This document shows, piece after piece, positions 5,465-34,380 of a stretch of 64,000 bases of DNA. The position numbers and the translations under genes were made by a program. This DNA comes from Actinopolymorpha singaporensis (lineage in GTDB: Bacteria; Actinomycetota; Actinomycetes; Propionibacteriales; Actinopolymorphaceae): positions 4,575,981-4,639,980 of the forward strand of contig NZ_LT629732.1 in assembly GCF_900104745.1 (NCBI RefSeq). Direction: 5' to 3'. The first letter of the stretch is position 1. Every line of letters starts with the position of its first letter. The notes beneath the pieces were generated by a model that saw nothing but the letters and a program-made list of their open reading frames with translations, had not been told where the DNA came from and did not search any database.

Positions 5465-6349
5465 TCAGGCCGCGGCGGGGGTGCCGGCCCGGCACTCCCG
5501 GGTGAGTACGACGACCGGGCACTGCGCCTGGTGCAGCAGCGCCTGGCTCACCGAGCCGAGCAGCATTCCGGTGAAGCCGCCGCGCCCGCGCGCGCCGACC
5601 ACGACCAGGCTGGCGGCGGCGGACAGTTCGATCAGGTGCCCCGCGGCGTGGCCCATCAGCACCCGCTCCTCGATCGGCAGGTCGGGGTACTTGTGCCGCC
5701 ACCCCGCGAGCGCCTCTTCCAGCAGCCGCAGCCCGGCGGCGGTGTCGGCGGCACCGGACCGTGCGGTGACCCCCTGCCGGACGACGTGCACGGCAAGGAG
5801 TCGCGCGCGCCGGCGGGCTGCCTCCTCCACCGCGACCTCGACCGCGACGGCTGCGAGCGGGGACCCGTCCACCCCGACGACGACGAGGTTGTCCGTGCGC
5901 TCGGGAGAAAGCGTGCCGCGGACCACCACGACCGGCGCCTGGGATCGGGCGGACAGTTCGATGGTGAGCGAACCCGCCAGCACGTCCGCCACCGAGCCGC
6001 GGCCGGCCGTACCGACCACCACGTACGTGGCGTCCCTGCTCAGATCCACCAGCAGTGGAAGGGGAAAGTCGGTCTCCACCGTGGTCGTGATCTCGATGTC
6101 CGGCGCCGTGTCCCGAGCCGTTCGTACCGCCTCCTCCACCAGGGAGTCCGCGTGCGCGCGCAGGCCGTCTTCGGGGCCGAGTTGCCACATGGCGGCGGGG
6201 ATGTGCAGCAGCGGCCAGGCGAACGCGTGCACCACCCGCAAGGGCACCTTGCGCAGCGTCGCGGCGTGCGCCGCCCAGGCCACGGCGTCAAGCGAGCCTT
6301 GCGTACCGTCGACGCCGACCACGACCGGTCTCGGTGTTTCGGTGGACAT
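5465..6349 (-). CDS. universal stress protein, two tandem USP domains
   Basis: 294 residues with two UspA-like domains. Each starts with a VVGVDG strand and ends in a nucleotide-loop motif: GTAGRGS in the first domain and GARGRGGFTGMLLGS in the second, the latter a good ATP-binding G-x2-G-x9-G(S) pattern. This tandem architecture is that of the M. tuberculosis DosR-regulon proteins Rv2005c, Rv2623 and Rv1996. The ATG at 6349 follows GGAGGAGTGA and lies 5 bp after the stop of the Acg-like gene, so the two form an operon. The longer in-frame N-terminal extension up to 6553 lies inside the upstream gene and is rejected. Confidence 0.9.
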   Translation of the reverse strand: MSTETPRPVVVGVDGTQGSLDAVAWAAHAATLRKVPLRVVHAFAWPLLHIPAAMWQLGPEDGLRAHADSLVEEAVRTARDTAPDIEITTTVETDFPLPLLVDLSRDATYVVVGTAGRGSVADVLAGSLTIELSARSQAPVVVVRGTLSPERTDNLVVVGVDGSPLAAVAVEVAVEEAARRRARLLAVHVVRQGVTARSGAADTAAGLRLLEEALAGWRHKYPDLPIEERVLMGHAAGHLIELSAAASLVVVGARGRGGFTGMLLGSVSQALLHQAQCPVVVLTRECRAGTPAAA

Positions 6350-6354
6350 GTGGG

Positions 6355-7398
6355 TCACTCCTCCGGGTCCTGCGGTGCTCGCGGCTCGGGCACGTTCTGG
6401 TCGGACGTCTGCGGTGCGGGGTCGGGGTCGCCTTCGGCCAGGACGAACTCCGCCACCGGCCGGCGCGGGGTCGGTGGGACCTCCGGCCCGTACCCGAACC
6501 GGAGCAGGATCTGTGGCTCGGTCCAGCCCGACCGCGGGTCGCGAACCAGCCACCGCAGGTCGGCGTGCTCGATCGGCTGGTTCAGCAGGGACGCCGCGAC
6601 GCCGTGGGTGGTGGCGGTGAGCAGCACCCGCTGCAGGGCCTGTCCGGCGGTGACCCAGTCCTGCGGGGTGTCGCGGGTGGTGGACAGGACGGCCAGCGTC
6701 GGTGTCTCCTCGAACTTCCCCTTCGGGCGGAGCCGGTCACCGGGATCCACGGCCAGGTCGCGGACCGGAGCACTGCCCTCGGCACGTGGCCCGAGCGCGC
6801 TGGACGGTACGCCGCTGCTGGTGCGCTGCCCGCCGACCCACACCTGACGCTCGACCAGGCGGCGCGGGTCGTCGGCCTCGGCGATGTCGGCGTCGGTGGC
6901 CAGTTCCATCAACCAGCGCTGCCGGTCACGGTCGTCGATCCACTCCAGCCGAACGCCTTCGCCGGCGGCCGCCTGGCTGATGTCCGCGCGGACCTCCGCC
7001 GGCACCGCCCGCTCGCTGAACGGCTGCCGGTTGGTGCGCCTGCGGGGCAGGAAGGGGAACAGGGCAGCCAACTGGCCGGCGTCCTCACTCGGGTTGCCCA
7101 CGCTCACCAGGGCGACGAACGTCGGGCGGTCCGGGTCGGGAAAGAGCAACGTCGTGGTGTGCGCCCCGATCGCGGCGGCGGCGACCCGCAGGTTCAGCAG
7201 CGCTGTGCCCGCCCCGATGAGCGTCATCCGTCCTTCCGGGTCCTCGGCGGCAAGCTCCCGGGCGGGATCGCGGTGGACCTCCACCGACCGGCCGCGGAAG
7301 CGGAAGCACCACGGCTGGGCGTTGTGCATGGACGGAGCGAGTACGGCCGCCCCGACGAGCGTGTCCCGCTCGGTCTGGTCGAGCTCTCCGACGAGCAA
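6355..7398 (-). CDS. Acg-family nitroreductase-fold FMN-binding protein (copy 1)
   Basis: 347 residues. APSMHNAQPW is the family signature, and an RRTNRQPF motif and a terminal PTPRRPVAE motif follow. The family includes M. tuberculosis Rv2032 (Acg), Rv3127 and Rv3131, all DosR-dependent. These proteins have the nitroreductase fold and may sequester FMN, since Acg lacks reductase activity. The activity here is not known. It is the first gene of an operon with the tandem USP downstream. A DosR-box-like dyad lies 63-76 bp upstream (7461-7474). The last 20 or so residues are acidic and Pro-rich and look disordered. Confidence 0.85.
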   Translation of the reverse strand: MLVGELDQTERDTLVGAAVLAPSMHNAQPWCFRFRGRSVEVHRDPARELAAEDPEGRMTLIGAGTALLNLRVAAAAIGAHTTTLLFPDPDRPTFVALVSVGNPSEDAGQLAALFPFLPRRRTNRQPFSERAVPAEVRADISQAAAGEGVRLEWIDDRDRQRWLMELATDADIAEADDPRRLVERQVWVGGQRTSSGVPSSALGPRAEGSAPVRDLAVDPGDRLRPKGKFEETPTLAVLSTTRDTPQDWVTAGQALQRVLLTATTHGVAASLLNQPIEHADLRWLVRDPRSGWTEPQILLRFGYGPEVPPTPRRPVAEFVLAEGDPDPAPQTSDQNVPEPRAPQDPEE

Positions 7399-32063: not shown

Positions 32064-33830
32064 ATGGACACGGAGACGACGCCGGGTCCTGAGCGACCCA
32101 TGGAAGTCCAGTCCGCACAGGACCTGTTGCTGCCGGACCTCAGCAGGCTTCGGCTGGAGACCCTGCTGCGCGAACTCGTCGACCGCGCGGACCAGCTGGT
32201 CGAGAACGAACGCCGCGTGCACCGCCTTCTGGACGCTGTCGTCTCCGTGGCGAGCAATCTCTCCCTCCCCGAGGTTCTGGAACGAATCGTGCGTTCGGCC
32301 TGCGATCTGGTGAGCGCACGTTACGGCGCGCTCGGTGTGATCGGTCCCGACCGCACCCTCAGCGAGTTCACCTACACCGGCTTCACCGAGGAGATGCGCC
32401 GCAACATCGGCCACCTGCCGACCGGCAAGGGAATCCTCGGCCTTCTCATCAACGAGCCCCACCCCATTCGGCTGCACGATCTTTCCCGGCACCCGAACTC
32501 CTCCGGCTTTCCGCCCAACCACCCGCCGATGAGGTCATTCCTCGGCGTTCCGGTCATGGTGCGCGGAGAGGCGTTCGGCAACCTTTATCTGACCGAGAAG
32601 CAAGGCGGCGGTGACTTCACCGACGAGGACGAGGAAGTCGTCGTCGCACTCGCCGCGGCGGCCGGGATCGCGATCGAGAACGCCAGCCTGTACGACATGT
32701 CCCGGCGGCGCGAGGCCTGGCTCATCGCGTCCACCGAGATCACCGCCCACCTGCTGTCCGGCGCGTCGCTCGGGGAGACCCTGGACCTGATCGTCGAGCG
32801 GGCCCGCGCGGTGGCCAGCGCCGAGCTGGCGATGCTCGCACTGGTCGACGAAGAGGGCGGCGACCTGGTGCTGGAGGCGGTGGCCGGCCCGCAGGCCGAC
32901 CGGTTGCGCAACGAACGGGTCTCCACCGTCGGCACCCCGATTGGTGACGTCCTGCTCACCAGCCGGCCCTATGTCTACGACGGCGACGCGGCCTCGCTCG
33001 GGTGGGACGGCGGCGGTGGCCGCACGGCGCAGCTCAAGGGCGGCTCGATGCTGTTCGTCCCGCTCGCCTCCGGCCCGCACATGCTGGGCGTGCTGATCGT
33101 CACCCGGCCCGACGGCCAGGCCGGCTTCGACTCCACCGACATGCACATGGTGACGACGTTCGCCGGGCACGCGGCGCTGGCGCTGGAGTTCGCCCGGGCG
33201 CAGGAGGACCGCGGCCGGCTGGCGGTGTTCGAGGACCGCGACCGGATCGCCCGCGACCTGCACGACCACGTGATCCAGCGGCTGTTCGCGGTCGGCCTGG
33301 GGCTGCAGGGCATCTCCCGCCAGGTGGTGCGCGTCGACCTCGCCGACCGGGTGAGCGGGTATGTCCGCGACCTCGACACCACCATCCAGGAGATCCGTCG
33401 GACCATCTTCTCCCTGCAGGAACGCGCGGGTGACCGGCGCAGCCTGCGCGGTCAGGTGCTGGAGATCGCCCAGGACGCCGCCTCCTCGCTGGGGTTCGAA
33501 CCGCGGGTGGCGCTGGAGGGGCCGCTGGACTCCGCAGTGCCCGACAGCCTGCGCCCGGAGGTTCTGGCCACCCTGCGCGAGGCGCTGGCCAACGTCGTAC
33601 GCCACGCTCACGCCAGCCACGCCGACGTCCTGATCCAGGCCGACGTGGGACACCGGATGTTCCAGCTGCACGTCACCGACAACGGTGTGGGCATCCCCGA
33701 AGACCCGCCGCGCCGCAGCGGCCTCACGAACATGGCCGAGCGGGCCCGCCGATGCGGCGGCCACCTCACGGTGGAGCCGGGGGCCCAGGGCGGAACGGTG
33801 CTCATCTGGCAGGTGCCGCTCAAGCAGTGA
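32064..33830 (+). CDS. devS: DevS/DosS-type haem sensor histidine kinase
   Basis: 588 residues from the ATG at 32064 (GGGAGGAGG upstream), against 578 in M. tuberculosis DosS. Domains: GAF-A (about 65-205), GAF-B (230-375), HisKA_3 with phospho-acceptor H400 in [16 protein letters not shown], then HATPase ([29 protein letters not shown]). The haem-ligand His of DosS GAF-A lies in a conserved segment; here it is H153 in [15 protein letters not shown]. So this is likely a gas- or redox-sensing partner of the DevR at 28.4 kb. It stands alone, with a 0.5-kb leader region, and ends 11 bp inside the convergent USP gene. Confidence 0.92.
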
Positions 33831-34380
33831 CACCCTGCCTCCCGCCGGGTGGCGGGATGATCACCACCGGGCAGACGGCTGCCCGCGCGCACTCCTGGGC
33901 CACCTCACCCAGAAGCAGGCCGCGGTGCCGGCCGGTTCCCTCCGCGCCGACCACCAGCAGCTCGGCGTCCTCCGACGCCATGATCAGCACCTGCTCCGGC
34001 GTACCCTCCTCCACCTGACCCTCGGCGTCGACCCGGCTTTCCCGCAGTTGGTTCACCTGCTCCCACAGGTCGCCCACGGTGTCCCCCACCGACCGAGCCC
34101 GGTAGCGACGGGACTCCACCGTGAGTACCGAGCCCACCACCGGCTCCCGGACGTGCAGCAGGACCAGCCGGGCGCCCCGCCGGGCACACTCCTCCGCGGC
34201 CCAGTCCACAGCCGCCTCCGCCGAGGCCGAGCCGTCCACGCCGACCACCACGAACGGGCGGCCGTCGGAGGAGCCGACGGCCGCCGGAGTGGTCTGCACC
34301 GCCGGCCCATTCTCGAGCCGGGACTCGGCCCCGGGCCGGGACTCGCGCCGGGGCGCCGGGACTGCCGTGGTTTCGCTCAT
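33820..34380 (-). CDS. universal stress protein, single domain
   Basis: 186 residues from the ATG at 34380 (GGGAGGA upstream). After about 40 disordered residues, one USP domain runs from [22 protein letters not shown] to [11 protein letters not shown]. The ATP loop is altered ([16 protein letters not shown], where a classic loop reads GxxGxxx9GS), so binding is uncertain. It is the fifth USP gene of the island and the only single-domain one. A weak DosR-box-like sequence lies 93-106 bp upstream (34473-34486). A hairpin (33840-33857) inside its 3' end could terminate devS. Confidence 0.82.

Follow-up and report, generated by a model that had tools for sequence, protein, structure and literature searches.

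A compact, probable DevR/DevS-type quiescence island in Actinopolymorpha singaporensis, with a HypF that probably stems from a lost hydrogenase module

In Mycobacterium tuberculosis, the genes of the DosR (DevR) regulon are scattered over the chromosome. Gathered versions have been published for two other actinobacteria: the OsdKR block SCO0167-SCO0219 of Streptomyces coelicolor, with a devR-type gene (PMC5069765), and the msmeg_3932-3955 region of M. smegmatis, where dos genes are found together with a devR copy (PMC2799521). In the latter species, the Hyd3/Hyh [NiFe] hydrogenase (msmeg_3927-3931) is dos-controlled and adjoins the dos cluster (PMC2799521, PMC8125079). The present work concerns an island of about 29 kb in Actinopolymorpha singaporensis (contig NZ_LT629732.1), located at positions 5465-34380 of the window, that is, the whole stretch of 64,000 nucleotides that was analysed (positions 4575981-4639980 of a 6,403,569-bp single-contig genome); the island represents 0.45% of this genome. 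With a probability of roughly 0.76, we consider this block to be a DevR/DevS-controlled quiescence island that also carries a hypF gene derived from a lost DevR-linked hydrogenase module. As a kind, a gathered DevR island is not new, since those of S. coelicolor and M. smegmatis are already published; the opposition between a scattered and a gathered regulon drawn in the preliminary description holds against M. tuberculosis but not against these two species. Having the block in so compact a form in a soil actinomycete would let much of the DevR programme be studied, or deleted, as one piece and outside pathogens.

The closest published layout found is the S. coelicolor block. According to its description (PMC5069765), the two share a regulator and a sensor of the DevR/DevS families, many genes for universal stress proteins (USPs), nitroreductases, pyridoxamine-oxidase-like flavoproteins (PNPOx) and hemerythrins near the regulator, and 16-bp palindromic boxes with identical spacing. 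The S. coelicolor block includes the genes nar2 and PPDK, and osdR and osdK form an operon there, whereas devR and devS are here 3 kb apart on opposite strands, and its half-sites read GGGCC instead of GGGAC (PMC5069765). The conserved set described here includes an aldolase, baeRF10, a Rv1738-type gene, HSP20 and hypF, five genes that may set it apart from the S. coelicolor block. Gathered dos genes with a devR copy are also common to the M. smegmatis clusters msmeg_3932-3955 and 5241-5246 (PMC2799521, PMC8125079); in that species the hydrogenase is present and the tabulated hypF genes (MSMEG_2273, MSMEG_2711) lie elsewhere, whereas here hypF is in the block and a hydrogenase was not found. 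Families common to the island and the M. tuberculosis regulon are DevR, the GAF sensor, USP, Acg, Rv1733c, Rv1738 and HSP20, and the baeRF10 protein is only distantly Rv2629-like. The overlap of a USP gene with the start of devR reproduces the Rv3134c-devR layout of M. tuberculosis, where a USP gene stands directly before devR, and the HAD-HAD-GH65 genes appear as a split form of the Rv2006 architecture.

Families were assigned with Pfam and NCBIfam profiles on the gene calls of the window, and the genome (G000) was compared with five others of the same genus (G001-G005) and two of the same family (G006, G007). Two of the relatives, G001 (40 contigs) and G005 (130 contigs), are drafts; five of G000-G006 are single contigs. 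The genes of the island are as follows:

5465..6349, minus strand: USP_a, two-domain universal stress protein (Pfam Usp, 144 bits)
6355..7398, minus strand: Acg1, Acg-family FMN-binding oxidoreductase (NF047509, 294.5 bits, cut-off 199)
7577..11803, plus strand: HAD1, HAD2 and a GH65 phosphorylase-type enzyme, a split Rv2006-like set (Pfam, NCBIfam)
11721..12707, minus strand: Acg2 (NF047509, 280.5 bits)
12756..13394, minus strand: Rv1733c-family membrane protein (NF050032, 148 bits, cut-off 80; 7/7 islands of G000-G006)
13646..14605, plus strand: USP_b (Pfam Usp; 7/7 islands)
16938..18098, minus strand: baeRF10 protein of the ribosome-hibernation-factor superfamily (PF18854, 75.6 bits, cut-off 27.1)
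18165..19058, minus strand: class I aldolase, DeoC/LacD fold (PF01791; 7/7 islands)
21978..22259, minus strand: Rv1738/Rv2632c-family protein (PF08962; PDB 4wpy, Rv1738, E 1.6e-25)
22611..23057, minus strand: HSP20 chaperone (PF00011; 6/7 islands, not found in G001)
23176..25704, minus strand: HypF, [NiFe] hydrogenase maturation carbamoyltransferase (TIGR00143, 517 bits, cut-off 466)
25849..26769, minus strand: Acg3 (NF047509, 279.5 bits; PDB 2ymv, Acg, E 6.9e-21)
26915..27424, minus strand: hemerythrin (HHE) protein (PF01814; 7/7 islands)
27458..28360, minus strand: USP_c, true ends uncertain (Pfam Usp, 53.8 bits)
28416..29084, minus strand: DevR response regulator (PDB 3c3w, M. tuberculosis DevR, E 2.5e-72)
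29081..~30055, minus strand: USP_d, overlapping the devR start, its own start approximate (Pfam Usp, 33.8 bits; 7/7 islands)
30342..30815, plus strand: PNPOx2, Pyridox_ox_2 flavoprotein (PF12900, 104.5 bits)
32064..33830, plus strand: DevS, GAF-GAF-HisKA_3-HATPase sensor kinase (Pfam; PDB DosT GAF, E 3.7e-53, also DosS GAF)
33820..34380, minus strand: USP_e (Pfam Usp, 80.7 bits)

These matches bear out the preliminary description for the five USP genes, the three Acg proteins (all above the NF047509 cut-off), Rv1733c, Rv1738, the Rv2006-like parts, the Rv3129-like part (Pyridox_ox_2) and the DevR regulator with its GAF-GAF-HisKA_3 sensor, as well as for hypF, the DeoC-type aldolase and hemerythrin. 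HspX was recovered at the family level, as an HSP20 protein. The Rv2629-like assignment stands for the superfamily (baeRF10 Pfam model) but not for the family, as the Rv2629-family NCBIfam model reached 53 bits for a cut-off of 320; the NCBIfam hibernation-factor models gave 48-61 bits, every one under its cut-off. A DoxX-like protein proposed at 30832-31566 could not be confirmed, this minus-strand open reading frame (ORF) having no Pfam or NCBIfam match. Hemerythrin, presented as an extra gene, is indeed present but was already known near OsdR (SCO0212) in S. coelicolor (PMC5069765).

DevR aligns almost end to end with 3c3w and keeps Asp55, Lys182, Lys185, Asn186 and Thr201, with Val208 at the position of DosR Thr205; the NarL-type receiver, the LuxR domain, the phosphoacceptor Asp and the DNA-contact residues expected of a DevR/DosR protein are thus present, among the latter the Lys, Lys and Asn of the recognition helix. 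DosS His149 and Tyr171 have their counterparts in DevS His153 and Tyr175, His400 is kept, and Gly91 occupies the position of DosS Glu87, where DosT also has Gly, so that the GAF-GAF-HisKA_3-HATPase architecture of DosS/DosT comes with a candidate haem His in the first GAF domain. Residue roles and reference numbering are taken over from DosR and DosS. DevS is 99% identical to its homologue in A. rutila (L051) and 85% in A. alba (L052), the next organisms being at 46% (records of the own genome were possibly omitted). A close DevR occurs in 7 of the 8 family genomes searched (G000-G006); in G007 the best DevR match is a distant one at 43%, and a PF08962 gene is missing as well. The ratio of nonsynonymous to synonymous substitution rates (dN/dS) of DevR against G001-G004 is 0.00-0.02, the lowest among 27 genes tested in all four comparisons, while DevS (0.03-0.06) is among the lowest and the Rv1738-type gene stands at 0.03 in two comparisons.

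Eleven core genes (DevS, USP_d, DevR, HHE, Acg3, HypF, Rv1738-type, aldolase, baeRF10, USP_b and Rv1733c) were found in identical order in 7/7 genomes (G000-G006) by tblastn on 20-kb stretches of the relatives. Core identities in G006 are 39-80%, with DevR at 93%; in G005, DevS and PNPOx2 are about 7 kb apart. USP_a has the same position in G001-G004 and G006, whereas the G005 stretches showed no copy at their far end. GH65, ECF sigma, YCII and PNPOx1 genes are present in G001, G003 and G004 but did not turn up in the stretches from G002, G005 and G006; they are probably passengers. The PNPOx1, YCII and DUF6596-type ECF sigma genes lie inside the island at 14767-16904 in G000, G001, G003 and G004.

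The non-random position suggested by the preliminary description was confirmed within the genome, where the island holds 5 of 14 USP genes (our gene count from 20 domain matches; binomial P 3.6e-9), 3 of 4 full-length Acg genes (P 3.7e-7) and the sole PF08962 gene (1/1; P 0.0045). These values treat genes as independent and tandem duplicates inflate their significance; the clustering is beyond chance. The fourth full-length Acg gene sits at a second, small DevRS locus (L146, G000:C1:3599000-3618999, ca. 6.9-12.5 kb), which contains a USP (56% to USP_a), this Acg (60%), DevR2 (74%) and a divergent DevS2 (53%).

Further away, 53 loci of at least 21 kb were surveyed out of 78 named DevS loci (L053-L130), several genera being represented repeatedly. 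Near these distant DevS relatives (10 kb each side), DevR was found 46 times, USP 40, Acg 30, PNPOx 14, Rv1733c and the 30.8-kb ORF 5 each, Rv1738-type 2 and HSP20 1, with HypF and HHE at 0. Control genes taken from the window neighbours occurred 5 (OppF), 2 (OppD) and 1 time each (SBP, AKR, ACAD), so that Rv1733c does not exceed the OppF control at these loci. Aldolase and baeRF10 lie 13-15 kb from DevS, which makes their 0 uninformative. Within the set searched, the DevR/DevS/USP/Acg core is widespread, and a large island with HypF and HHE beside DevS occurs only in the own family.

To look for DosR-like boxes, a palindromic motif was learned without guidance, from 500 random seeds, in 33 promoter stretches belonging to G002, G005 and G006, the window being held out from motif learning. 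The best motif, AGGGACCATGGTCCCT, had a log-likelihood of 66.9 (runner-up 61.7). Its half-sites and spacing match the DosR consensus TTSGGGACTWWAGTCCCSAA (PMC2275270); its spacing is that of the OsdR consensus, from which each half-site differs by one base (PMC5069765). Sites were counted at a position weight matrix (PWM) score of at least 9. The predicted boxes, to which no strand is assigned, are listed below:

7460..7475: Acg1/HAD1 divergent promoter (PWM 8.4, under 9; footprint in G000-G004, partly in G006)
13518 and 13539 (13518..13554): two boxes between Rv1733c and USP_b (PWM 10.2, 10.6; conserved block)
19148..19163: ahead of the aldolase, lying within the called ORF upstream of it (PWM 9.65; footprint in 6 genomes)
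22351..22366: before the Rv1738-type gene (PWM 9.5; OsdR PWM 11.7)
23113..23128: before HSP20 (PWM 10.8)
27489, 27510 and 27531 (27489..27546): three tandem boxes before hemerythrin, with exact 21-bp spacing (PWM 11.4, 14.2, 11.1)
30146 and 30210 (30146..30225): two boxes in the USP_d-devR / PNPOx2 promoter (PWM 10.6, 9.7; footprint across relatives)
31626..31641: between ORF 30832-31566 and DevS (PWM 13.1)

Footprints are clearest at the triple hemerythrin sites and at CGGGACTTTGTGCCCTG ahead of USP_d-devR, a site with the form CGGGACTTAGGTCCCTG in G005 and CAGGACCTTGGTCCCTG in G006. The hemerythrin boxes are conserved in relatives, with fewer in distant ones, and overlap the last ca. 30 codons of the USP_c ORF (27458-28360). 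In the window, 12 sites fall in 3464 bp of island intergenic sequence and 9 in 25735 bp of island genic sequence, compared with 3 in 4640 and 7 in 30146 outside; 300 permuted matrices gave a mean of 1.0 and a maximum of 5. When ORF 27458-28360 is taken as coding, 9 sites remain in 3192 bp (Fisher p 1.4e-5 vs the rest of the window). As the promoters of the relatives are homologous, other families offer a stronger test. Sites were denser in intergenic than in genic sequence in the seven f3 DevR loci (25/11014 vs 51/128881 bp, or 2.27 vs 0.40 per kb), in 14 f4/f2 DevR loci (24/20868 vs 136/258922; 1.15 vs 0.53), in the 78 named DevS loci (143/121800 vs 581/1344403; 1.17 vs 0.43) and in the two hydrogenase-bearing loci discussed below, G226 and G242 (12/7213 vs 45/92712; 1.66 vs 0.49). 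Five stretches of the own genome without close DevR, three around USP genes far from a close DevR and two flanking the second DevRS locus, gave 1/4987 vs 23/69939 (0.20 vs 0.33), and ten of 18 HypF control loci 8/16347 vs 74/183503 (0.49 vs 0.40). The enrichment is thus replicated at DevR/DevS loci of other families and not in the control loci.

Several observations count against DevR control of the block as a whole. Palindromes stand before genes, as in a DosR regulon, for part of the units only: no box of at least 9 was found before Acg1/HAD1 (8.4), Acg2, Acg3, HypF, baeRF10, PNPOx1 or the 19.7-kb ORF, and these units may be co-transcribed or may not be controlled. Island promoters outscore 29 control promoters of the window at only p 0.013, and a score of 9 is likewise attained by six of these 29 values, part of which stem from divergent regions that are shared; in a stricter recount, island versus outside intergenic sequence alone gave p 0.02, 0.017 and 0.10 at thresholds 8, 9 and 10. 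A matrix built from the 26 readable OsdR sites (Urem Table 1) showed weak enrichment, with 7 island intergenic sites scoring at least 6, equalled by 5 of 1000 permutations, and the second DevRS locus of the genome has 1 intergenic site of at least 9 in 1486 bp, which is not significant. The plain consensus GGGACNNNNGTCCC with 2 mismatches, unhelpful at this G+C content, matched 55 times in the window against 118.7 in shuffles, and GGGACYWTSGKCCC with 1 mismatch had 53 genome-wide matches against 55 for the control, an absence of excess that leaves a genome-wide regulon not definable. Consensus patterns made by eye had been fitted to the island and were for that reason discarded. Degenerate boxes, this lack of genome-wide excess and the units without a strong box would fit a stress-gene neighbourhood assembled by drift or co-inheritance, without common DevR control. 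Such a history is improbable given the gene order kept in all seven genomes at the identities seen in G006, the persistence of the core in G002 and G006, where GH65, ECF, YCII and PNPOx1 are not kept, and the box enrichment replicated in other families. In another reading, proposed for Streptomyces, the regulator might mainly link stress with sporulation and the development of the mycelium, and not with hypoxic dormancy: the closest published layout found is the S. coelicolor block, and loss of OsdR alters sporulation genes plus the usp/nar block (PMC5069765). The GAF His and Tyr of DosS/DosT are, however, retained in DevS, and none of the genes in the block was recognised as developmental, so that we hold this role to be rather unlikely as the main one; the developmental and dormancy readings are compatible with each other.

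A DevR-controlled low-oxygen island, as the preliminary description proposed, is the best reading of the block and a likely one, on the strength of regulator and sensor orthology, gene content, synteny and boxes. The families, conserved residues, gene order and box enrichment are direct readings of the sequences. DevS, a haem sensor by homology, would respond to low oxygen, to NO/CO or to reduction of the respiratory chain by phosphorylating DevR at Asp55; phosphorylated DevR would then bind GGGAC-N4-GTCCC-type boxes ahead of several units in the block and turn on the universal stress proteins, the flavin-handling Acg proteins, hemerythrin and the HSP20 chaperone, together with ribosome-silencing candidates (baeRF10, Rv1738-type) and sugar-salvage enzymes. 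Haem, phosphotransfer, DevR binding and low-oxygen induction are the steps that we infer in this scheme.

The second component of the island, hypF, is encountered without its usual partners. The protein has the acylphosphatase, Zn-finger, YrdC and Kae1-like domains (five Pfam families) and exceeds the TIGR00143 cut-off; the G006 protein has lost its Zn-finger part and scores below it. Each of G000-G006 has a single HypF-length match, inside the island. Profile searches of these seven genomes revealed no HypD and no HypE over cut-off and no full [NiFe] large subunit (PF00374), HypC not being searched genome-wide; the HypC/D/E partners and the [NiFe] hydrogenase that would mark a maturation system were therefore not found in this sample. 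PF00374 matches in G002, G005 and G007 were set aside as fragments, spanning 67-68 of 508 positions. An overlooked hydrogenase, on a plasmid or with diverged maturases, could still be served by this HypF, as the draft status of G001 and G005, the fragments in G002 and G005 and the scope of the HypC search might allow. We judge this very improbable, since all seven genomes, five of them single-contig, gave no HypD and no HypE over cut-off, and six of the seven island proteins have lost the acylphosphatase Asn.

Across the class (296 genomes), HypF was detected in 80 at E <= 1e-60 and HypD in 77 at E <= 1e-20, with HypF in the absence of HypD in 5 of the 80 (G000, G079, G107, G126 and G150; lists compared by eye). 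G079, G107 and G126 were rejected as stranded cases, as HypC or HypE adjoins HypF and the genomes are drafts. G150 (L195), a genome in which HypD went undetected, has a long-branch HypF with no HypC/D/E matches in its 20-kb stretch and may represent a second case unrelated to the island type.

The close HypF type was found in 8 of the 296 class genomes besides the own one (51-57% identity, 526-729 bits; next 470 bits). In midpoint-rooted trees of 27 and 33 HypF sequences, the seven island proteins form one group (support 100/99 and 100/100), sister to G226 + G242 (100/100 and 98/95); in the larger tree they belong to a group of 15, with a long supported branch between it and the other 18. In G226 and G242, HypF is part of a DevRS locus that shares with the island DevR (66-70%), DevS (45%), USP, HAD1 and HypF (50-51%), and that also holds HypC, HypD, HypE and the hydrogenase subunits HyhBGSL, none of which was found in the Actinopolymorpha-family islands. 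Of this pair, G226 alone was noted with a Rv1738-type gene adjoining HypF, as here. The G226 subunits match best NAD(P)-dependent sulfhydrogenase models, with scores under the equivalog cut-offs, and we read the G226/G242 enzyme as group-3b-like ('group 3b'). Over 1.75 kb, the DNA of G226 is 77% identical to that of Pseudonocardia acidicola (L053). A similar hydrogenase occurs in G307 with a Rv1733c-family gene and USPs, and no DevR match in 67 kb. HypFCDE sets without dormancy genes in the stretch fetched (G216, G062, G127 and G112) indicate that the tie to DevR holds for the sister pair and not for the HypF type at large.

A HypF with intact motifs was also observed in G248 (L223, 7.6-12.3 kb), followed by Rv1738-type, USP and USP genes; its 34.6-kb contig has no HypC/D/E, and HypD and another HypF are found elsewhere in the genome.

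On the simplest history, the island hypF would descend from a maturation gene that belonged to a DevR-linked module with a group-3b-like [NiFe] hydrogenase; in the own lineage this enzyme and the remaining hyp genes would have disappeared, with HypF kept and still under selection. No published description of this DosR-linked stranded HypF turned up in the literature searched. The series from hydrogenase-complete DevRS loci through an intact HypF beside Rv1738 and a stranded HypF to a HypF without Zn fingers would illustrate an accessory enzyme outliving its client and possibly changing job, and its history links DosR-type loci to hydrogen metabolism beyond mycobacteria.

What the retained protein does is approached through its motifs. 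The acylphosphatase Asn lost in six island proteins, the own one included, is kept in 26/26 others; the Kae1 GG..N motif is altered in 7/7 island proteins and in 0/26 others compared. In addition, the G006 protein lacks the YrdC Lys, and that of G005 one His of HHHAH. Given the catalytic roles that we assume for these residues, the carbamoyl-phosphate step is predicted to be impaired. A decaying relic, carried in a conserved block with no present function, is a possible though doubtful account. Motif losses that vary by lineage, including the missing Zn-finger region and YrdC Lys of G006, favour it; against it, the frame is open in all seven genomes and dN/dS values of 0.20 (G001), 0.21 (G004), 0.24 (G003) and 0.33 (G002), over 795-841 codons, lie within the range of the other 26 genes, which indicates purifying selection and speaks against a pseudogene. 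The Kae1-like part is best kept in three of five island pairs, G000-G002 (78% vs 57-66%), G000-G005 and G000-G006, unlike the hydrogenase-linked pair G226-G242, where Zn fingers come first (85% vs 61%). In the other two, G000-G003 and G002-G005, the acylphosphatase (99% vs 95%) and the Zn fingers (71% vs 69%) are better kept; slow decay could also explain the retention, a point that counts against continued function. Selection now resting on the C-terminal half is a guess with mixed support; action on another substrate through the Kae1-like carbamoyltransferase half is likewise a guess. A repurposed dormancy protein whose Kae1-like half transfers a carbamoyl, or related, group to a target in quiescent cells is a tentative and unlikely proposal. 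The proximity of HypF to Rv1738-type genes in three lineages (own family, G226 and G248) would make a ribosome- or stress-protein-linked target the first guess.

Elsewhere in the island, at 20626-21961, a class F sortase gene adjoins that of a small secreted-looking protein.

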